Below are positions 13,901 to 26,243 of a stretch of 30,424 nt of DNA, piece by piece (position 1 is the first letter of the stretch; each line of letters begins with the position of its first letter). Made by a program: the position numbers and the translations under genes. Source of the stretch: a virus; IMG/VR virus record IMGVR_UViG_3300031758_000378, positions 1 through 30,424 of that record; one strand, given 5' to 3'. The notes beneath the pieces were generated by a model that had not been told where the DNA came from, ran no database searches, and was given only the letters and a program-made list of their open reading frames with translations.

Positions 13901-14200
13901 AAAATATATATATCCCCCCTATATAATATAACAGAAATTTTTAATGGGATAGTACAGTACAACACCGAGCCTCAGTTAATAACCTCTGGGTCAAAATCAC
14001 ACTCTCTCCTATGTCGTCTGTTGGTATCGGTGGCTAAGACTAAGGCTAATAGTGGTGATTAGACTAACTACTAAACATTATTTCAGGGGGTATAAAGTAA
14101 AAATGAAATACAAAAGACTAAAGGACTAAAGGCGTTTATTAAATTAAAAGATTAAAAGATAAAAGACAAAGGACTAAAGACAATTACCCAACACAAACTT

Positions 14201-14375: not shown

Positions 14376-14391
14376 GTAATCAAATGATTAC
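14376..14391. promoter_or_regulatory. Palindrome GTAATCA-AA-TGATTAC before the first early gene
   Basis: Perfect 7-bp arms around an AA spacer, ending one base before the first 17-bp palindrome. The two form adjacent dyads. Its arm-AA-arm layout resembles the LexA box next to it but with different arms, so it may be a second regulator's site. Confidence 0.4.
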
Positions 14392-14392
14392 C

Positions 14393-14409
14393 TGTATTAA
14401 ATTAATACA
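14393..14409. repeat. 17-bp palindrome copy 1 (TGTATTAAATTAATACA)
   Basis: Perfect 8-bp arms around a central A. It lies 28 nt before the ATG of the 203-aa gene and upstream of its AAAAGG ribosome site. Confidence 0.9.
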
Positions 14410-14437
14410 GTAAATCCGAGAAAAGGAAAAACAAAAA

Positions 14438-15049
14438 ATGGCAACAACAACAAAGGCACCAAAGGCAACAAAAGCAAGCGCAACAATCTCAAGTGTAGTT
14501 GTAGATGCTTATTCTAAATTAGTTAATTTAGAGGGTGAGCAAGGTTTTATCTCACTATGCGTAAAACGCCTAAAGGCAAACACCTCAAGCGTTAGAGATA
14601 TCCAAGCCTCAATCGACAAGGCAGGGGGCACCGCACCTACCATCCGCAAAGCGCATGTCCAGTATTTCATAACCATGCAGGAGATATTGGATACTGTTGC
14701 AGGTGCAAAAACTCAGCCAATCTCAGAGTTGCTTAAAATGGCTCAGAGAGTACAAACCGCAAATGGCAAGGAGAAAGTTGCCGAGGTTTTAGCCGAGGTA
14801 AAAGACTATGCCGAGTTAGTGGCAGAAACCCCAACACTCGACCAAACCCGCACCCGCAAAAATGCCACCGCACCAAAGGCACCTGCAAGTGTCGAGACAA
14901 TTTTTACCAAGACACTTTCAGACTTGAAAGCCTTGAAAGGTGTCGGGTCTTGGGAATTGATAAAGACCTCAGACCTGCAAACCCTTGCAACACTTTCAGA
15001 GTTGCTGAGAGTTATTGCAAAGAACTCAGCACCAGCAAAAACCAAGTAA
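14438..15049 (+). CDS. Early protein of unknown function (203 aa), Ala/Lys/Thr-rich
   Basis: First and longest of the leading early genes, with its own upstream control sites and a strong terminator after it, so it is probably a separate, well expressed transcript. Residues 1-20 are a Lys/Thr/Ala-rich basic tail. The middle (20-115) is helical. A second Lys/Pro/Ala linker (about 135-150) leads to a helical C-terminal part (TLSDLKALKG...LATLSELLRV). The basic low-complexity tail and linkers would suit a nucleic-acid-binding or abundant early protein, but no family is recognised. Its base use is richer in C and A than its neighbours, with preferred codons that suggest high expression. Confidence 0.65.
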   Translation: MATTTKAPKATKASATISSVVVDAYSKLVNLEGEQGFISLCVKRLKANTSSVRDIQASIDKAGGTAPTIRKAHVQYFITMQEILDTVAGAKTQPISELLKMAQRVQTANGKEKVAEVLAEVKDYAELVAETPTLDQTRTRKNATAPKAPASVETIFTKTLSDLKALKGVGSWELIKTSDLQTLATLSELLRVIAKNSAPAKTK

Positions 15050-15064
15050 GAAAAACCAAGATAG

Positions 15065-15092
15065 CCCCCGAGAAATCGGGGGTTATTTTTTT
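15065..15092 (+). terminator. Strong intrinsic terminator after the 203-aa gene
   Basis: Stem CCCCCGA (15065-15071), GAAA tetraloop, TCGGGGG (15076-15082), then TTATTTTTTT. It ends 43 nt after the stop codon region and isolates the first early gene from the next operon. Confidence 0.92.
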
Positions 15093-15133
15093 GCCCAAAA
15101 CGACACGCCCGACCTCGGGGGGAAAAACAAAAA

Positions 15134-15201
15134 CCCAACACAAACTTTCAGGGAGTGCGGGTAGCAAGCGCAAAGACCAACCAAAAAAATCCCAACACAA
15201 A
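15134..15201 (+). repeat. Two CCCAACACAAA repeats
   Basis: CCCAACACAAACTTT at 15134-15148 also occurs exactly at 14187-14201. The shorter CCCAACACAAA recurs at 15191-15201. The copies flank the 203-aa gene and its terminator. Confidence 0.5.
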
Positions 15202-15213
15202 TTTTTGGCGGTT

Positions 15214-15262
15214 GGCGGTGCGTAAGAATTGATGGGCGGTGCGTGTAAATTGGGCGGTGCGT
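15214..15262 (+). repeat. Three GGCGGTGCGT direct repeats
   Basis: Identical 10-mers at 15214-15223, 15235-15244 and 15253-15262, spaced 21 and 18 bp apart, directly upstream of 17-bp palindrome copy 2. They are GC-rich islands in an AT-rich region. They look like protein-binding iterons or an upstream activator array. Confidence 0.55.
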
Positions 15263-15273
15263 GTGCGGATAGG

Positions 15274-15290
15274 TGTATTAAATTAATACA
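15274..15290. repeat. 17-bp palindrome copy 2
   Basis: Exact copy, 19 bp upstream of the -35 of the predicted promoter at 15310. It is the one copy placed before a promoter and not directly before a start codon. Confidence 0.9.
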
Positions 15291-15309
15291 GATTAAAACC
15301 CGAATATGC

Positions 15310-15338
15310 TTGACTTCTTTGGGGTGATAGAGTATTGT
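15310..15338 (+). promoter_or_regulatory. Predicted early promoter (TTGACT - 17 bp - TATTGT)
   Basis: The -35 TTGACT (15310-15315) and -10 TATTGT (15333-15338) are separated by 17 bp. Transcription would start near 15345, so palindrome copy 3 (15370-15386) would lie in the leader RNA and copy 2 upstream of the promoter. Confidence 0.6.
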
Positions 15339-15369
15339 TATCTCATGAGGTTAATTACCGATTACAGAG

Positions 15370-15386
15370 TGTATTAAATTAATACA
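15370..15386. repeat. 17-bp palindrome copy 3
   Basis: Exact copy, ending 22 nt before the ATG at 15409 and followed by the GAAAGG ribosome site. Confidence 0.9.
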
Positions 15387-15408
15387 CCTGCTGAACGAAA
15401 GGTTAGAC

Positions 15409-15558
15409 ATGAGTACAGTTGAGTTAATCAACTCACTTGATGAAGTTGTCGAACTAACTAAACAACTGCTTCATGATGAGATTGAACGCAACAAGCAAGA
15501 GCAAGCAAATCGTAATCGTCCAAACTACGATTATCTGAGAGCATTGGGGCTAATCTAA
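15409..15558 (+). CDS. Small early protein, unknown (49 aa)
   Basis: ATG 15409 follows GAAAGG at good spacing. The product (MSTVELINSLDEVVELTKQL...) is a mostly helical, charged peptide with one long amphipathic helix over about residues 5-32 and an end YDYLRALGLI. Its stop overlaps the next start (TAATG), so the two are translationally coupled. No family recognised. Confidence 0.6.
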   Translation: MSTVELINSLDEVVELTKQLLHDEIERNKQEQANRNRPNYDYLRALGLI

Positions 15559-15701
15559 TGACCCCTGATGATATTGCCCTTGACTTTATGACAGAGCAAG
15601 AGATAGCCGAGATTATGGCAACCGAGGACATATTCCAAGTGGATATGACTAATCTTGACGATTTACTTGAGGATGTTGCTTCGGACTCGGACTACGAATA
15701 G
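15558..15701 (+). CDS. Ultra-acidic small protein (47 aa), possible DNA mimic
   Basis: Starts in a TAATG overlap with the 49-aa gene. The sequence has 16 Asp/Glu in 47 residues and no Lys, Arg or His at all (MTPDDIALDFMTEQEIAEIM, ending SDSDYE). Such a charge profile in a tiny early gene resembles phage DNA-mimic inhibitors of restriction or other DNA-binding host proteins (Ocr/Arn-like in principle, no sequence relation claimed). It may instead be an inhibitor partner of the coupled upstream peptide. Confidence 0.6.
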   Translation: MTPDDIALDFMTEQEIAEIMATEDIFQVDMTNLDDLLEDVASDSDYE

Positions 15702-15711
15702 CAACTGGATA

Positions 15712-15758
15712 GCCCACGCTGGTGCGTGTGAGCATAGGTTCAATTCCTATGGTGGGCA
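15712..15758 (+). other. tRNA-like element: T-arm plus acceptor stem, D and anticodon arms missing or degenerate
   Basis: A canonical T-arm (ATAGG-TTCAATT-CCTAT, 15735-15750 region) is followed by GGTGGGC and discriminator A. GCCCAC at 15712-15717 pairs with GTGGGC to give six of seven acceptor pairs, but only ~16 nt lie between the 5' strand and the T-arm. The intervening CACGC-TGGT-GCGTG could form a small alternative hairpin. An ACTGGATAGC just upstream looks like a D-arm, but no full acceptor can be made from it. Options: a minimal tRNA mimic, a decayed tRNA, or the 3' half of a host tRNA in an attachment site. No integrase is visible nearby. Confidence 0.4.
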
Positions 15759-15762
15759 CGAG

Positions 15763-15779
15763 TGTATTAAATTAATACA
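15763..15779. repeat. 17-bp palindrome copy 4
   Basis: Exact copy, four bases after the tRNA-like element and 22 nt before the ATG at 15802. Confidence 0.9.
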
Positions 15780-15801
15780 CTTAATTAACGAAAGGCAGTA
15801 T

Positions 15802-15930
15802 ATGTACATAGAGGTAAGCGATACGATAGCAATTATTATCGCATTGACTATCAGCACCACGCTGGTAATCACTACTGCGATTAAAAATGCTAAACTCATG
15901 AAGGCTTTGCGTGAGTTAAATGTCAAATAG
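15802..15930 (+). CDS. Small single-span membrane protein (42 aa)
   Basis: The start at 15802 has GAAAGG eight bases upstream; longer upstream reading would run through the tRNA-like element. Residues about 6-27 (TIAIIIALTISTTLVITTAI) form one membrane segment, followed by a basic helix (KNAKLMKALREL). The last 11 bases overlap the next gene. Likely an inner-membrane early peptide; no family recognised. Confidence 0.6.
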   Translation: MYIEVSDTIAIIIALTISTTLVITTAIKNAKLMKALRELNVK

Positions 15931-16141
15931 AGAGGTTGATTTCGCCAACGATATCATCCTTGCATTAACTCGAGATGAGTTGGAGACGATACGGGAAGCG
16001 TTGCGACAATTCTCTATCAATAATAATCGACATGGGTTTGAGGCGAGAGCCAAGCATGCCGATACCTTGCGGGATAAGATTGTGAATATAATTCTTGATA
16101 GTGTCCAGCAAAGACTTGACAAGTCTAAGGAACTAGTGTAA
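15920..16141 (+). CDS. Small helical early protein (73 aa)
   Basis: Overlaps the membrane-peptide gene by 11 nt. The sequence is charged and entirely helical in appearance (LALTRDELETIREALRQF, then RAKHADTLRDKIVNIILDSV). No cysteine cluster, nuclease or clear helix-turn-helix motif is seen. Function unknown. Confidence 0.6.
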   Translation: MSNREVDFANDIILALTRDELETIREALRQFSINNNRHGFEARAKHADTLRDKIVNIILDSVQQRLDKSKELV

Positions 16142-16151
16142 ATTAGTTCTT
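16128..16151 (+). other. Hairpin at the end of the 73-aa gene
   Basis: GAACTA (16130-16135) pairs with TAGTTC (16144-16149), extendable to 8 bp with a wobble pair. No T-run follows, so it is at most an attenuator or RNA-stability element just before palindrome copy 5. Confidence 0.3.
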
Positions 16152-16169
16152 GTAATGAGATGAACCGCT

Positions 16170-16186
16170 TGTATTAAATTAATACA
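16170..16186. repeat. 17-bp palindrome copy 5
   Basis: Exact copy, ending 25 nt before the amidoligase ATG at 16212 and upstream of its GGAAAGG. Confidence 0.9.
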
Positions 16187-16211
16187 GCGAATAGCACGGA
16201 AAGGATAGGTT

Positions 16212-17435
16212 ATGGACACTATTGATGAGGTAGCAGTCAAGTGTTGTATCGCTTGCAATACCGAGTTAGATAGTTCTGATGCGCTTTATACCCGAGATAA
16301 TGACCCTGTCTGTCAAGATTGCATAAGGATATGCGAGTGTTGCGAGGATATTATCTCTATTGATGATGAGTATAATGATGTAGAGGGTAGACTATGGTGT
16401 CAAAGTTGTACCGAAAATGATGCTCATTGGTGCGACTTGGGCGACCACTACTTTACAGGTTATACTTATGGTACGGATGATTGTAGCGATGTCATGTGTG
16501 AGAGGTGTTATGAACGCAACACTTCTTATTGCGAGGATTGCGACGCTACTTATCTAAATGGTTGCGAATATAATCATGATGAGGAGGATGCTAGACTTAT
16601 ACATGATTATTCATATCGACCTGACCCTATATTTCATAGTTCCGAGGATGAGAATACAAGACTATACTTTGGTATAGAAGTTGAGACGGAAATCCGAGGT
16701 AGTGATTATAGTCAGCGTAGAGTATCTGCCGAGTATGCTGGTATCATATTGGAGAGTGAGAAGTTGGCATACTTAAAGCATGATGGCTCGCTTGAGTGTG
16801 GGTTTGAAATAGTGTCGCATCCTATGACCCATAACTATTTCATGAAGGAAGCCAGTACTTTATGGAATGTAATTACTAAACTCAAAACAGATTACAATAT
16901 GATAGCGTGGGGTACTAAAACTTGCGGACTTCATATTCATATATCTCGTGCTGGGTTTAGTGGTGGTTCTCATCAGCATAGGTTCTTGCAGTTAGTCTAT
17001 AATAACAAGGACTTTTATGAGGCTATGGCTGGTAGGTCATCTAGTCATTGGGCTAAGTTTGATGATGTTAATGACCCAGAAACTGGACGCAAGTCCTTTA
17101 AGCACAAGTTAGACCGAAATGGTTCAGATAGATATTCTGCTGTTAATACTAACAATAGAAATACGCTAGAAATGCGTATCTTTAGAGGTAGTCTTAACCA
17201 TAACTATCTCAAAGCATGTATTGACCTAGCGCATGCCAGCGTTGAGTTCACTCGGGTGATGAGTGTGCCCGAGGTTCGTAATCACAAGTTAGACTGTATT
17301 AATTTAATACAGTATGTCCGAGACAGGGCTGAGTTATATCCTGCTCTCAACTCACGATTAGACAGATTGTCTGATGTGATATCTAGGATAGAGAGGAAAG
17401 AGCATGTGTCTGCTAGTAGTAAGTTCTCCGAATAG
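16212..17435 (+). CDS. Amidoligase-family protein with N-terminal zinc-binding domain (407 aa)
   Basis: Residues 1-125 hold repeated CxxC pairs (near 12/15, 34/37, 63/66, 96/99 and 107/110), a LIM/treble-clef-like zinc region. From about 150 the protein matches the ATP-dependent amidoligase family (COOH-NH2 ligase fold related to glutamine synthetase): YFGIEVETE, HDGSLECGFEIVSHPM, CGLHIHIS, and NTLEMRIFRGSLN, which supply the expected Glu, His and Arg active-site positions. Such enzymes form amide or peptide bonds, using a carboxylate and ATP. The next gene, overlapping by 32 nt, is a glutamine amidotransferase, so ammonia may be the amine donor. The target is unknown; cell-wall peptide or a phage or host protein are candidates. 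A copy of the 17-bp palindrome lies inside the gene at 17295. Confidence 0.82.
   Translation: MDTIDEVAVKCCIACNTELDSSDALYTRDNDPVCQDCIRICECCEDIISIDDEYNDVEGRLWCQSCTENDAHWCDLGDHYFTGYTYGTDDCSDVMCERCYERNTSYCEDCDATYLNGCEYNHDEEDARLIHDYSYRPDPIFHSSEDENTRLYFGIEVETEIRGSDYSQRRVSAEYAGIILESEKLAYLKHDGSLECGFEIVSHPMTHNYFMKEASTLWNVITKLKTDYNMIAWGTKTCGLHIHISRAGFSGGSHQHRFLQLVYNNKDFYEAMAGRSSSHWAKFDDVNDPETGRKSFKHKLDRNGSDRYSAVNTNNRNTLEMRIFRGSLNHNYLKACIDLAHASVEFTRVMSVPEVRNHKLDCINLIQYVRDRAELYPALNSRLDRLSDVISRIERKEHVSASSKFSE
17295..17311. repeat. 17-bp palindrome copy 6, inside the amidoligase gene
   Basis: TGTATTAATTTAATACA, the same dyad read from the other strand (central T). It is kept intact while encoding Cys-Ile-Asn-Leu-Ile-Gln, about 110 nt before the amidotransferase start. 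Confidence 0.9.
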
Positions 17436-18237
17436 CACGCCACGCAAGAAGGACTTAGAGTGTGCTTCTTGCAACAATCCGCATGGCTTTGGCTATGCTG
17501 TAATTGCTGGTAATAAAATTATTACTGGCAAGGGTATGTCCTCTAAGAAAATTATCAAAGAGTTCTTAGAAGTGCGTAAGAAGTACCCAAAGAGTTATGC
17601 CATGTTTCATGCTAGGTTTGCTACGCATGGCGTAAAGAATGATGACAACTGCCATCCTTTCAAGGTTGGTGGTAGTGAACTGACATACCTTGCACACAAT
17701 GGTGTGCTAAGTGTGGACATACCTGCCAATGATATGCGTAGTGATACTCGTATCTTTGCCGAGGATATCTTGCCTGCTATGGGTGGTATTACTGCACTAG
17801 ATAATACTAACCTATATCGTATGATAGAAGGCTGGGCTAGTGGTAGCAAGATTGCAGTATTTACGCTAGACCCTAAGGCTGAGTATGACTGCTACATTAT
17901 CAACGAGGACTTAGGTCATTGGGATAATGCTGGCAACTGGTGGTCTAATGATGGCTACAAGCAAAATGCATGGACTAACTTATTCAAGAAGGGCGACGAA
18001 TACTATGACACACTAGACCCAATGGGTGATGATGGCTATGCTTGCATGATGTGTGGCACAGCAGTAAGTGATGATGATAATCCATATTATTGCTTCTCTT
18101 GTGGCTCATGCTTTGATTGCAGTATGATAGTCAATGACAGTTGCCTATGCTGGTCTCCTGAGATGGAGAAGTGGAGTTCCAGCCAACACAAACAATCGAC
18201 GGGAGTATACAATGGACAATATGACTTTGGCTTCTAA
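17404..18237 (+). CDS. Class II glutamine amidotransferase with C-terminal zinc-like cluster (277 aa)
   Basis: Met1 is followed by Cys2, the N-terminal nucleophile of Ntn-type glutaminases. Further class II marks: NPHGFGYAV (25-33), Arg71 and His75 in FHARFATHG, and Asn99-Gly100 in AHNG, at spacings like those in GlmS and PurF. It hydrolyses glutamine to glutamate and ammonia. Residues about 213-255 add a Cys-rich zinc-ribbon-like tail (CMMCG, CFSCGSCFDC), echoing the zinc region of the amidoligase. The start has GAGAGGAAAG and overlaps the amidoligase by 32 nt, so the pair probably forms a complex that uses the released ammonia or remodels glutamine-containing substrates. Confidence 0.85.
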   Translation: MCLLVVSSPNSTPRKKDLECASCNNPHGFGYAVIAGNKIITGKGMSSKKIIKEFLEVRKKYPKSYAMFHARFATHGVKNDDNCHPFKVGGSELTYLAHNGVLSVDIPANDMRSDTRIFAEDILPAMGGITALDNTNLYRMIEGWASGSKIAVFTLDPKAEYDCYIINEDLGHWDNAGNWWSNDGYKQNAWTNLFKKGDEYYDTLDPMGDDGYACMMCGTAVSDDDNPYYCFSCGSCFDCSMIVNDSCLCWSPEMEKWSSSQHKQSTGVYNGQYDFGF

Positions 18238-18349
18238 AGAGGAAGTCAGAAAAATAATTATAGAGTTAATCTCTATCGCCAAAACCATTGACGAGAGAGA
18301 TGACAATATAGTTGCACGAGCAAGACTACTATTGCAAGATTTGCAGTAG
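18212..18349 (+). CDS. Small helical early protein (45 aa)
   Basis: ATG 18212 has GGGAG six bases upstream and lies inside the end of the amidotransferase gene (26-nt overlap). MDNMTLASKEEVRKIIIEL... is one long charged helix to the end (ARARLLLQDLQ). Function unknown; the coupling suggests expression with the amidotransferase. Confidence 0.5.
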   Translation: MDNMTLASKEEVRKIIIELISIAKTIDERDDNIVARARLLLQDLQ

Positions 18350-18366
18350 TGTATTAAATTAATACA
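18350..18366. repeat. 17-bp palindrome copy 7
   Basis: Exact copy starting at the base after the preceding stop codon. Its last bases abut GGAGG, and it ends 10 nt before the ATG at 18377, so a bound protein or RNA fold here would cover the ribosome site. Confidence 0.9.
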
Positions 18367-18376
18367 GGAGGATAGC

Positions 18377-18604
18377 ATGAAGTTAAAAGTACATCATCCT
18401 AGTGGGGATGTAATAGCAGAGGTATATGATTATGCTGCTGGCGCATTACTGATGAGTCTGTACGGAGATGGCTCTTATATTACTTATAAAGGGGCATCAG
18501 TATGGGAGGAAGGCACAGATGGCGAGGGTGCTGAAAGTTATGACACTACAAGTATGGTAATAGACTCTAGATTAATTAGCATGGGGGTGCAAGTTGACGG
18601 CTGA
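18377..18604 (+). CDS. Small early protein, unknown (75 aa)
   Basis: Follows GGAGG directly after palindrome copy 7. The sequence looks beta-rich at first (MKLKVHHPSGDVIAEVYDY) and acidic in the middle. No known motif. It overlaps the next gene by 11 nt. Confidence 0.55.
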   Translation: MKLKVHHPSGDVIAEVYDYAAGALLMSLYGDGSYITYKGASVWEEGTDGEGAESYDTTSMVIDSRLISMGVQVDG

Positions 18605-18854
18605 AGTGACTCGTGAGGAAATATTAAACAAATACATGGTTCAATCAACTGGTATAGCCACAACTGGCTGGACTAAGTATATTAGATTACATACTGGCGC
18701 AATCAATGGCGAGTATACTGGTAGGCTACATTGGGATTCTAATGATGGCTATACAATGTTTTGGGACAATGATAGAGCACCTAAGGAAGCATATCGTCCT
18801 GAGTTTGAATATATATTAGATTCGATTACGGAGGGTAGTAATGCAAATAACTGA
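18594..18854 (+). CDS. Small early protein, unknown (86 aa)
   Basis: The likely start is TTG 18594 with GGGGGTG upstream. The product (MTAEVTREEILNKYMVQSTG...) has Trp/Tyr-rich beta-like segments (GRLHWDSNDGYTMFWD). It has no recognised family. It overlaps both neighbours by a few bases, as expected for a coupled early operon. Confidence 0.5.
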   Translation: MTAEVTREEILNKYMVQSTGIATTGWTKYIRLHTGAINGEYTGRLHWDSNDGYTMFWDNDRAPKEAYRPEFEYILDSITEGSNANN

Positions 18855-18987
18855 TGAAGTACTATGGGAAATAAAAATCAGGAAGTTAGATGTAGGCGAT
18901 ATGGGCGATGAAGAAATCAAAACCCTGCAATCAGAACTCACTAGTGCTGTACAAAGAGTACTTTGGGAGTATAGAATACATAACTAA
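18841..18987 (+). CDS. Small acidic/helical early protein (48 aa)
   Basis: ATG 18841 follows GGAGGG at six bases and overlaps the previous gene by 14 nt. MQITDEVLWEIKIRKLD... is a charged helical peptide ending VLWEYRIHN. It stops just before palindrome copy 8. Function unknown. Confidence 0.5.
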   Translation: MQITDEVLWEIKIRKLDVGDMGDEEIKTLQSELTSAVQRVLWEYRIHN

Positions 18988-18988
18988 C

Positions 18989-19005
18989 TGTATTAAATTA
19001 ATACA
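18989..19005. repeat. 17-bp palindrome copy 8
   Basis: Exact copy in the short gap after the 48-aa gene, 14 nt before the GTG at 19020 and next to its AAGGAGG. Confidence 0.9.
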
Positions 19006-19019
19006 TTAAGGAGGATAGC

Positions 19020-19169
19020 GTGAGAACAAGTAAAGAAGTTAGAGATGAACTTGATGATATCAAGCGCAACTACGGTAGAGATGATACTCAATATACGGAA
19101 GAAGTAGCGGGATGGGTTGAGGCTTTAGAGTGGGTGCTATCCGATTATAAAGGAGATGAGTATGAGTGA
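19020..19169 (+). CDS. Small early protein, GTG start (49 aa)
   Basis: GTG 19020 is supported by AAGGAGG at ideal spacing. The sequence (MRTSKEVRDELDDIKRNYG...) is acidic and helical with two Trp residues in GWVEALEWVL. It overlaps the next gene by 8 nt. No family recognised. Confidence 0.55.
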   Translation: MRTSKEVRDELDDIKRNYGRDDTQYTEEVAGWVEALEWVLSDYKGDEYE

Positions 19170-19287
19170 GCCAATGTATCTAATGGGTGATGATTATGCA
19201 CTTGGTATTAATCAAACCTGTGATGACTGTGATGAAACAAAATGTATATGCTTCGAATCGGATAGGATGTGGGAGGATGATGTATGA
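19162..19287 (+). CDS. Small Cys-motif protein coupled to the WhiB gene (41 aa)
   Basis: ATG 19162 follows AAAGGAG. The short acidic product has CDDC and then C-x-C (CDDCDETKCIC), enough for one zinc or iron site. Its stop overlaps the WhiB start as ATGA. It may be a metal-binding partner or simply a small coupled peptide; unknown. Confidence 0.55.
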   Translation: MSEPMYLMGDDYALGINQTCDDCDETKCICFESDRMWEDDV

Positions 19288-19634
19288 TAGGCAACTGTAC
19301 TAATGATGCTAATCCTGATTGGTGGTTCCCTGAACTACCTCGTAATAGGATTAGTAGAGATAGGCTAGAAGTAATTACTAAACAGACCAAGTATGCGCTA
19401 CAATTATGCTCCTCATGCCCAATTAAAAATGAGTGTTTGGCTGAGGGCATGAAGACTGAAGAGATGCGTGGGACTGTAATTGGTTGGGGTAATCTACCAT
19501 TTGGAATATGGGGTGGTACTATGCCTTATGAAAGACTAGAGAAGGTTGGTATTACCCCTCGCACCAGTAGCGGTGAGGCGGTAAAGAAAGCCTTTGCACT
19601 CAAGAACCAAATGGGACAACTGTTAGGAAGGTAG
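19284..19634 (+). CDS. WhiB-family [4Fe-4S] transcription factor (116 aa)
   Basis: The four cluster cysteines are C5, C42, C45 and C51 (CSSCPIKNEC), and the G-I-W-G-G turn is at 74-78. WWFPE near the N-terminus and the basic C-terminus also suit the family. WhiB-like proteins bind the primary sigma factor and DNA and are confined to actinobacteria and their phages. Phage copies such as TM4 gp49 affect host septation and superinfection. This protein probably redirects host transcription early in infection and is the strongest evidence for an actinobacterial host. Translation is coupled by an ATGA overlap. Confidence 0.93.
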   Translation: MIGNCTNDANPDWWFPELPRNRISRDRLEVITKQTKYALQLCSSCPIKNECLAEGMKTEEMRGTVIGWGNLPFGIWGGTMPYERLEKVGITPRTSSGEAVKKAFALKNQMGQLLGR

Positions 19635-20749: not shown

Positions 20750-21463
20750 TTAATCATCTTCAAGCCTATCGTTGTTCCTCTCCTCATTATCATGTTCACC
20801 ATCTACGGCTGGATTCTCGCTGTTGGTATCTTCAACTTTTTCTTCGATGTCTTTGTCTAACCAAGGACGGAAACCACCAACTCGATTAATTAATTTCTTT
20901 ATAGCACGGTTGTGACGCATGCGAGCAGCGTCTTCGCTACCTAAACTCATCTCAGTAGCGATGGCGTTGTAGTCAAAAGACTCGGCGTACTTATAAAACA
21001 GTACAGTCCTATCCTCTGTATTGAGTTTATTGTACGCCTTGTCTATTTCAATCATCATCACCATCATATTACCACCCTCGGCAGGGGCAGGTGGCTTGCC
21101 TGGACCAGCAAGATTTAACTTATGAGCAACGCCTATCTCGCCACGAATTACTGCTGGCAATAAAGCCTCAATCATGGCGGCATCATAATAAAATACATCT
21201 GATGTTTCATAGCCAACTGACTTGGCTTTCCATTTCTGGCAATAATCTAATGCATCATTACGTAAAGAGCGATAGATTAAATTCTTAGCATCTTTTTCCC
21301 CAATAGATTCCCACTCATTTAATTTGTTAGGATGTTCCACAAACCATTGGTAGAGGGATTGTCTTATATCATCCAACTCTACCATGTCATACTTCTTGTG
21401 GTACTCAGTAGATACTGCTTGTACAATGTAGTCCCACTTCTTAATTTTTTCCCACTCCATCAT
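20750..21463 (-). CDS. Sigma-70-like / sigma-factor-type DNA-binding protein (237 aa)
   Basis: The start at 21463 uses an ATGA overlap with the phosphoesterase gene. The N-terminal part has helices with aromatic and acidic content (VELDDIRQSLYQWFVEH, LIYRSLRNDALDYCQKW) like sigma region 2. The C-terminal half has a region 4 helix-turn-helix (RTVLFYKYAESFDYNAIATEM...RMRHNRAIKKLI). The last ~45 residues are very acidic and probably disordered. It may direct host RNA polymerase to phage middle or late promoters, or act as a regulator only. It is the last gene of the replication operon. Confidence 0.7.
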   Translation of the reverse strand: MMEWEKIKKWDYIVQAVSTEYHKKYDMVELDDIRQSLYQWFVEHPNKLNEWESIGEKDAKNLIYRSLRNDALDYCQKWKAKSVGYETSDVFYYDAAMIEALLPAVIRGEIGVAHKLNLAGPGKPPAPAEGGNMMVMMIEIDKAYNKLNTEDRTVLFYKYAESFDYNAIATEMSLGSEDAARMRHNRAIKKLINRVGGFRPWLDKDIEEKVEDTNSENPAVDGEHDNEERNNDRLEDD

Positions 21464-22200
21464 TTCCAAACCTTTCCGTCAAATACAAATGAGCCATCCA
21501 TATTGACTGGAACAAGGTGAGGTACAACTTTATTGCCATCAACATACAAGACTCCAAAGCCTTTATGCCATGTGAATAGTCCGCCACGAATATACTTAGC
21601 GAACTTAAAGTCCATTAAACAGCCGACTTCCATACCCCAAATCGTTCTAGGATTACCGCCAAAATATGACTGTGTGTAATGAGTCAAGCCCATACGGTGC
21701 GTGTGTCCACAGACTACGCTAAGTCCTGCACGTTTTGCTAGACCCAATGCGGTAGCACCAGAGGTGGGCTGCACGTTACCTTCATCACCATGCAGTAGCA
21801 ACCAATTAGGTGCTAGTTCGTATGGCTTCTCATGATAGGTGATACCTAAGTTATCTAACTTCAAGAAATTCTTTAACTCAAGTTCGGGCAGACCAGCAAG
21901 CCCTGGTGCTCTCATTTTAATGGTGTTAAATAATCTATCTGTGTGATTACTGCGAATCATATGTTTAATCTTTAATGACTCAAGCACACGATAGGTTTCA
22001 TCTCTATCGTTACCAATAGATTTTTCGTGTTCTAACTCGGTGCCTTTACTCCATTTTGAAATCGTCTGCATATCCATTTCATCTCCCACCGATACGACTT
22101 CATCAGGCTTGTAAGATTTAATGAAGCGAGACAATACAGAGACTGCCTTTTTATCGTGATAAGGTACTTGTAAATCTGACACACAGACTATGATTTTCAT
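21460..22200 (-). CDS. Calcineurin-like metallophosphoesterase (246 aa)
   Basis: Metal-binding motifs in order: SDLQVPYHD (residues 8-16), GDEMD (about 39), SNHTD (about 84), LLLHGDEG and CGHTH. These give the two-metal site of the family. Substrate is unknown; nucleic-acid ends or nucleotides are plausible given neighbours. ATGA overlaps join it to the HNH gene before and the sigma-like gene after. Confidence 0.88.
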   Translation of the reverse strand: MKIIVCVSDLQVPYHDKKAVSVLSRFIKSYKPDEVVSVGDEMDMQTISKWSKGTELEHEKSIGNDRDETYRVLESLKIKHMIRSNHTDRLFNTIKMRAPGLAGLPELELKNFLKLDNLGITYHEKPYELAPNWLLLHGDEGNVQPTSGATALGLAKRAGLSVVCGHTHRMGLTHYTQSYFGGNPRTIWGMEVGCLMDFKFAKYIRGGLFTWHKGFGVLYVDGNKVVPHLVPVNMDGSFVFDGKVWK

Positions 22201-25622: not shown

Positions 25623-26243
25623 TTATCCTTCTTTCTTTACAGAGAATTGACAATGAGCGGTTAATCCGCACATGTACTGACAAGAGTTTGTGTTGGGCAG
25701 AAATACACCCGCTTTCCTAGCCTTGTCAAAACCTTTAACTAGGAACTCCATCTTGTCGTACGTGTATTCCGACAAGTTAACCATCTCTACAATGTTACTT
25801 GCACGAGACATGTAGTAATTACCCCATATAGTTTGCTCATAGATTTCTTGACCGTAAGTAACTTCTAATCCTACTTTATAGAAACCAAGTTGCAACGTAC
25901 TTGTAGGTGTGTTTTTTGATGTCTTTAAATCAACTATTACTAATTGACCATTAACATCAAAAATTCTATCGATAACCATCTTGATTGGAACATCAGCAAC
26001 TACTGGCATAAGTTCCAACTCAATAGCAGGGCGTCCATCAGGCGTAATCCAAATCTTCCAATCAGGATTAGCCTTGCGCCAGTTAATATAATCCTCTACC
26101 CATATCGGTCCAGCAGTATGCCAAAACTTTACGTCTTCCTTATTGGGAGACATTTTGGTAACCTTACCGCCTATGCGAGCATTAGTTAAATCTATACCTT
26201 CAGATTCCTTAGCCCATGCTTGGTCCCACAGATATTGGCTCAT
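25623..26243 (-). CDS. RecB/Cas4-like PD-(D/E)XK nuclease, catalytic part (206 aa)
   Basis: Carries the catalytic Asp and Asp-x-Lys (DRIFDVNGQLVIVDLKTSKN) and the QLGFYKVGLE motif of RecB-family nucleases. It ends with a Cys cluster (CQYMCGLTAHC) that may hold an Fe-S cluster. The N-terminal motif of the family is in the preceding 63-aa gene, with which it shares an ATGA overlap. Probably an exonuclease for replication or recombination. Confidence 0.75.
   Translation of the reverse strand: MSQYLWDQAWAKESEGIDLTNARIGGKVTKMSPNKEDVKFWHTAGPIWVEDYINWRKANPDWKIWITPDGRPAIELELMPVVADVPIKMVIDRIFDVNGQLVIVDLKTSKNTPTSTLQLGFYKVGLEVTYGQEIYEQTIWGNYYMSRASNIVEMVNLSEYTYDKMEFLVKGFDKARKAGVFLPNTNSCQYMCGLTAHCQFSVKKEG

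Follow-up and report, generated by a model that had tools for sequence, protein, structure and literature searches.

The window analysed in this work, the entire virus record IMGVR_UViG_3300031758_000378 (30,424 bases), carries eight exact copies of a 17-bp perfect palindrome, TGTATTAAATTAATACA, which lie within 4.6 kb and in one block of rightward genes. We propose, with a probability of about 0.8, that this palindrome is the operator of the product of gene1, the first gene of that block, and that the product is an autoregulated multi-site repressor of the block, which is presumed to be early from its gene content and host-type promoters. The initial annotation of this DNA had suggested an operator for an early regulator; the comparisons with related phages support this suggestion and allow the regulator gene to be named, since gene1 is the one gene with orthologs in all operator classes that tracks the class.

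Palindromic sites and their placement

The palindrome has 8-bp arms and a one-nucleotide centre, and it is asymmetric at the central base only, by which the copy O6 was assigned to the complement strand. An exact motif scan of the record recovered the eight copies that had been annotated (O1 to O8, Table 1), and the scan of the whole record with up to two mismatches added none; the sole further match at up to three mismatches is at 14135, with three. Counting both strands, 17 matches with up to three mismatches were observed against 0.28 expected by chance, which agrees with the earlier statement that chance cannot explain the eight copies. Six sites end 28, 22, 22, 25, 10 and 14 nt before the next start codon, within the annotated range of 10 to 28 nt. 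Given 14 starts, random placement would put at least six of the eight sites no more than 30 nt before a start with a probability of about 2e-5. Also as annotated, one copy (O2) precedes a promoter, here named P2, and one (O6) lies inside the amidoligase gene.

Several sites are associated with promoters. In most classes of related phages, a pair of sites about 89–107 bp apart encloses a TTGAC-type promoter, as O2 and O3 enclose P2; since this spacing varies, a fixed loop is not implied. All 18 distinct sequences of the amidoligase operator have a promoter with at least 10 of 12 matches on its upstream side, as do 11 of 12 for the operator of gene 18377 (0.01 in shuffled sequences for both), and these two operators are located about 15–35 bp past the expected transcription start. 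Upstream of O7, relatives present TTGACA-17-TATAAT and the window itself a weaker promoter. For the operator before gene 15802 (O4), such a promoter was seen in just 1 of 29 cases.

With near-consensus promoters and sites just downstream of them, repression fits considerably better than activation. It is unlikely, although not negligibly so, that the gene1 protein binds the sites and activates, or both activates and represses, with O2 (centre at about −59 to −64) aiding RNA polymerase at P2 and the downstream sites tuning or limiting expression. CRP-type activators typically sit at such a distance upstream of the −35 element, and the O2-type site is found at a fixed 13–15 bp from the −35 (TTGAC) of P2 in most classes and at 19–20 bp in class A, a place typical of activators. 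However, P2 and the promoters of amidoligase and gene 18377, being near-consensus, should need no help, most sites are downstream of the promoter, and the class A spacing is off by about half a helical turn.

Class-specific palindromes and their covariation with gene1

About 45 related IMG/VR contigs, of freshwater phages, have a 17-bp odd palindrome at the same positions, with a sequence specific to each genome. The exact TGTATTAAATTAATACA, which defines class A, is present in 12 further related contigs with 6–10 copies each, and amidoligase relatives without it have a different odd palindrome in its place. Relatives typically have 4–10 copies of their own palindrome, which agree or nearly agree within a genome and all change together between genomes. 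Exact-motif matches in single-copy contigs were taken as chance, except for L027/L207, which has a class A gene1. The orthologous downstream genes in relatives are likewise preceded by sites, so the annotated position before genes is conserved among related phages, but the palindrome sequence itself is not. The O1 position is occupied in every class A genome that includes gene1 and its upstream region; in G002 the site has one mismatch and is further upstream.

At least nine operator classes were distinguished (A, B, C, D, E, F, H, I and J, Table 1). Classes E and H are similar enough that they may form a single class, and E, H and I are known from one to three contigs only. A candidate for a tenth type, CACTTTATAATAAAGTG, comes from a single contig, G035, without gene1 sequence. 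The close relatives are all metagenomic contigs, mostly incomplete.

The gene1 protein diverges along with the sites. Other class A phages share 77–89% identity with it; the value is 44% for G002, a distant member of that class, and 29–31% for class D. When all genes of the window were compared with 29 relatives, gene1 was undetected by BLAST beyond classes A and D, whereas most other genes were recognisable across classes. Homologs of gene1 were found by position and profile in every class where the region is present; a profile of all gene1 proteins was too diverse for searching, and clade profiles were used.

The distance between gene1 proteins correlated with the distance between half-sites (Mantel r 0.69, and 0.70 when controlling for amidoligase), while amidoligase alone gave 0.22. 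In the per-gene comparison, gene1 reached 0.63 over 11 consensus types and 17 of the other 19 genes ranged from −0.01 to 0.34; the remaining two were the primase (0.47, in 14 genomes) and gene2 (0.87, in two classes only). On trees of 27 genomes, the same for each gene, for which 8 classes require a minimum of 7 changes, the operator class changed 7 times with gene1, 11 with GATase, 12 with amidoligase and 14 with TerL. The phages G006 and G020 illustrate this pattern, with amidoligases 92% identical, gene1 proteins 24% identical, and operators that differ at 4 of 8 half-site positions. Among 59 contigs that extend 2.5 kb or more past TerL, 47 had both gene1 and the palindrome family and 12 had neither, with no discordant case; this count includes some duplicates and its 12 negatives come from other lineages, so it is supporting evidence only.

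A prediction from gene1 only was also borne out. The class A gene1 profile alone reached contigs L214–L221, in which gene1 is 37–46% identical, and these contigs bear their own new palindrome, TGTATGAAATTCATACA (class J), in 6–10 copies where coverage allows. This family is intermediate between classes A and D.

These observations bear on which protein reads the sites. That a host regulator binds them is the least probable of the alternatives considered. Phages can employ host regulators, and no data point to one here; operators differ between phages whose backbones are nearly identical, and it is a phage gene that this difference follows. It is also very improbable that specificity is set by gene2, of 49 residues, or by a complex of gene1 and gene2 products. 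The gene2 sequence differs between the two gene1 clades and the gene follows O3. However, among classes B, C, E, F and H its correlation with the operator was 0.41 against 0.71 for gene1 (an approximate comparison, some position-based gene2 calls being wrong), and G002 has class A operators with no recognisable gene2 at that place. As a determinant of specificity gene2 was judged weaker than gene1; speculatively, it might be a partner or an anti-repressor of the regulator.

AlphaFold2 models of two gene1 members (predicted local distance difference test, pLDDT, of 82 and 84) are all-helical, and helices 52–62 and 71–86, with a short loop between them, are consistent with a helix-turn-helix (HTH). 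No match to the gene1 family was found in Pfam, PHROGs, PDB sequences or PDB folds, and with Foldseek the models matched nothing significantly in PDB or among viral models. When gene1 was scanned by a sliding window, conditioned on the rest of the protein, the partial correlation with operator distance was strongest (about −0.7 to −0.75) at residues 44–72. It was intermediate (−0.4 to −0.5) at about 74–120, and close to zero over the first 48 residues as well as past about 116. The peak coincides with the predicted HTH, where the link to operator class is strongest. In this region, class A has APTIRKAHVQY with half-site TGTATTAA, class J has APTIKKGHAQY with TGTATGAA, and class D has, for example, HPVIKSSQVEG with TGTCTGAA. 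This comparison suggests, as a hypothesis, that R or K at position 70 corresponds to half-site base 6 (T/G), and that the H/Q and Q/E changes correspond to half-site base 4 (A/C).

A further reading, that the sites are centromere or replication repeats, with gene1 ParB-like or an initiator and gene regulation secondary, appears very unlikely. Foldseek weakly matched one gene1 model to the DNA-binding domain of a ParB protein (6s6h, E 1.2, probability 0.23), a match that falls short of significance and was absent when the second model was searched. The ParA family AAA_31 was absent from 13 records (other ParA-like families were not searched), and the sites are at promoters and ribosome sites rather than arrayed.

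The site inside the amidoligase gene follows the operator class. The perfect 17-mer is found in every class A sequence that encodes the peptide CINLIQ, whereas five class B or C phages encode the same peptide with TGTATTAACCTAATACA or similar, the differences being synonymous codons only. The class D sites in SCL(N/K)FRQ are intact in class D and were lost synonymously in class E and F phages with the same peptide. Although these sequences are related and not independent trials, the operator class decides whether the in-gene site is kept or lost, through synonymous changes.

The other explanation offered in the initial annotation, an mRNA hairpin, is disfavoured by these data. Under it, hairpins in 5′ leaders would govern translation, decay or processing and the DNA palindrome would be incidental, which we regard as hardly credible. 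The sites do stand directly before ribosome sites, and the 17-mers are foldable, alone giving −2.5 to −8.3 kcal/mol. But neither identity within a genome nor joint switching between genomes is required by a fold alone, and O2 is upstream of its promoter and outside its transcript. In 188 distinct sites, complementarity at the first flanking pair was 0.43 against 0.41 by chance, with a slight excess at pairs 2 and 4. Departures from the class consensus numbered 109: in 64 of them a pair is broken, in 38 a wobble remains, and in 7 the change is compensatory. These two tests do not support the RNA hairpin role, and the class, moreover, follows gene1. Searches in Rfam gave sub-threshold matches only.

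Proposed regulation and gene content

In the mechanism that we propose, the gene1 product would be a homo-oligomeric DNA-binding protein that occupies all eight sites, with one subunit per 8-bp half-site bound through the HTH at about residues 50–86. It would repress its own gene at O1. The main early promoter P2 would be repressed from both sides, by O2 upstream and by O3 within the first bases of the transcript. Repression of the amidoligase promoter and those of later genes would be exerted at O5, O7 and O8, just beyond the transcription start; at the promoterless sites O4 and O6 a roadblock is possible. The rightward early block would thereby be shut off in a coordinated way. Protein and site would have diversified together, giving at least nine specificities, and phages that are otherwise alike would exchange these by recombination.

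Some points weigh against this proposal. Neither an integrase nor a prophage was detected, so lysogeny, the usual reason for a phage repressor, appears to be missing. No tyrosine integrase or resolvase families were found in 16 records searched, and a test for a partition or integration module by ParA (AAA_31), integrase and resolvase families gave none in the records searched, which include five relatives of about 39–40 kb. A search of 84,980 bacterial and archaeal species genomes for relatives of TerL and of gene1 gave none; prophages, if there are any, may be extrachromosomal. In addition, gene1 matches no known DNA-binding family or solved fold, and its HTH is read from a medium-confidence model. 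O2, centred near −60, could by itself also suit an activator site, and gene2 co-varies partly as well. Finally, relatedness is not taken into account in the Mantel permutations, on which neither the tree counts nor the gene1-only prediction depend.

A wider scenario is possible, albeit doubtful. In it, virulent phages of abundant freshwater actinobacteria have specificities like immunity groups, any phage that co-infects or superinfects and shares the operator has its early block silenced by a repressor of a new family, and competition without lysogeny drives rapid co-diversification and exchange of regulator and operator sets, leaving a readable HTH recognition code. If the proposal is true, these phages hold a regulator family without recognised relatives, with at least nine natural regulator–operator pairs, in phages related to those that infect the abundant freshwater Nanopelagicales. 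A code of protein–DNA recognition could then be read from evolution; classes A, J and D, for example, are separated by single-base changes in the half-site and by few residues in the predicted recognition helix. The joint switching of a multi-site set, including the synonymous in-gene loss, would be a clean case of regulon-wide co-evolution. The family would also be a source of orthogonal repressors and a way to test repressor-based exclusion between non-lysogenising phages.

Table 1. Proposed operators, genes and promoters of the window, and palindromes of the operator classes
Feature	Position	Strand	Remarks
Operator O1	14393..14409	+	exact motif; 28 nt 5′ of gene1 start
Operator O2	15274..15290	+	exact motif; 19 nt upstream of P2 −35
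Operator O3	15370..15386	+	exact motif; 31 nt downstream of P2 −10, before gene2
Operator O4	15763..15779	+	exact motif; before gene 15802–15930; stoperator-like
Operator O5	16170..16186	+	exact motif; 25 nt 5′ of amidoligase start
Operator O6	17295..17311	-	within amidoligase coding sequence, peptide CINLIQ
Operator O7	18350..18366	+	exact motif; immediately 5′ of ribosome site of gene 18377–18604
Operator O8	18989..19005	+	exact motif; before gene 19020–19169
gene1, proposed sequence-specific DNA-binding regulator, 203 aa	14438..15049	+	all-helical model, pLDDT 82, HTH-like at residues 52–86; tracks operator class
gene2, 49-aa protein	15409..15558	+	differs between two gene1 clades
Amidoligase gene, proposed regulon target	16212..17435	+	Pfam PF12224 above cut-off
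Class II glutamine amidotransferase-like gene	17404..18237	+	below Pfam cut-off; downstream of O6
Promoter P2, TTGACT-17-TATTGT	15310..15338	+	sigma70-like; flanked by O2 and O3
Promoter TTGACA-17-TAAATT	16116..16144	+	upstream of amidoligase operator
Promoter-like TGTACA-18-TAGAAT	18948..18977	+	upstream of O8
Operator class A			TGTATTAAATTAATACA
Operator class B			TGCTGTATAATACAGCA
Operator class C			TGTCATATWATATGACA
Operator class D			TGTCTGAAATTCAGACA
Operator class E			CACTATATAATATAGTG
Operator class F			TGCCGTATAATACGGCA
Operator class H			CGCTATATAATATAGTG
Operator class I			CATATTATAATAATATG; from further searches
Operator class J			TGTATGAAATTCATACA; from gene1-only search

TerL, the portal and major head proteins, and proteins of WhiB-like and sigma-like type could be recognised in the record. 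By TerL, at 76% identity, the Planktophila phages E7 and F5 come closest among named phages; their isolation host belongs to 'Ca. Nanopelagicales' (PMC10202952). These two phages have neither gene1 nor a comparable palindrome family, and a near-identity search among named phages gave no match. The WhiB-like protein (19284–19634, + strand) and the sigma-factor-like protein (20750–21469, − strand) are encoded in the same region and are possible further regulators. The amidoligase and class II glutamine amidotransferase-like genes adjoin (16212–18237), both under the proposed operators; named relatives of the amidoligase are mostly from Marvin-like mycobacteriophages, labelled as glutamine amidotransferase domain proteins.

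Other elements are found beside the sites. Just before O4 there is a tRNA-like minihelix (15711–15759, + strand) with an acceptor stem, GCCCAC/GTGGGC, and a T-arm with TTCRATT loop, with no anticodon arm; ARAGORN called no tRNA at this place. It is conserved across classes as a single copy per genome in a constant position; 98.9% of cells are paired, 6 of the 12 pairs show compensatory changes, and the element could be a processing site for RNase P or RNase Z in the early transcript. A second palindrome, GTAATCAAATGATTAC (14376–14391, + strand), abuts O1 in class A. Its loop is of variable length in relatives, and in G011 the stem is another one (GTGAG/CTCAC), a pattern suggestive of an RNA hairpin formed by the gene1 leader. 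The element CCAACACAAA recurs at 14188, 15135, 15192 and 18183 (+ strand) and at 25687 (− strand), clustered round gene1, and is present in relatives of several classes. The operator–promoter unit of P2 is duplicated in tandem, with three operators and two promoters, in G002, G003, G005, G011 and G012 (loci L039, L041, L043, L051 and L052). In class J, the last operator abuts the intrinsic terminator GGGGCTGGCCAGCAT...GCTGGCTGGCCCTTTTT that ends the rightward block (L214:12058–12125), a junction also present in L215, L216, L217, L219 and L220.

Comparison with known systems

No similar palindromic system in actinophages was found in the open-access literature. Regulators of the lambda CI/Cro type bind palindromic operators as dimers and are autoregulated, and in gal, GalR-type operators are on both sides of the promoter. 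The gene1 system resembles both in its palindromic operator, its proposed autoregulation and the operators flanking a promoter, but it has no sequence or fold match to them, and the spacing of its operator pair is variable. KorB, of the KorB/ParB family, is a multi-site palindromic regulator of several operons; the structural similarity of gene1 to this family was not significant, and ParA (AAA_31) was not found.

The start-associated sequences of cluster K mycobacteriophages had been named as the nearest parallel, which stands for position and not for form. In both cases repeated elements are located just before start codons. The cluster K start-associated sequence (SAS) is an asymmetric 13-bp GGGATAGGAGCCC before start codons, and the extended form (ESAS) consists of two imperfect 17-bp inverted repeats with a 4–13 bp spacer, whose consensus differs between subclusters and whose recogniser is unknown (PMC3203893). 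The sites described here, in contrast, are single palindromes, and no SAS partner of the GGGATAGGAGCCC type was seen, by reading, beside the eight sites.

The stoperators of cluster A mycobacteriophages, such as L5 and Bxb1, are closer. In those phages the distances between stoperator motifs and between repressors correlate, and heteroimmunity is the result (PMC6550527). As in cluster A, a phage regulator appears to have many near-identical sites per genome, at promoters and short intergenic gaps, and the site sequence diverges together with the proposed repressor between related phages. Cluster A stoperators are 13 bp long, asymmetric and oriented with transcription, with 20–30 per genome, in temperate phages (PMC6550527, PMC9283540), and the repressor is a monomer with two DNA-binding domains (PMC9283540). 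Here, the sites are palindromes confined to one block, no integrase was detected and lysogeny is not evident, and the gene1 family showed no relationship to the cluster A repressor (L5 gp71) in Pfam, PHROG, PDB-sequence and PDB-fold searches (no direct alignment with gp71 was made). By analogy, then, the gene1 system would work like the cluster A repressor and its stoperators, without being a member of that system.

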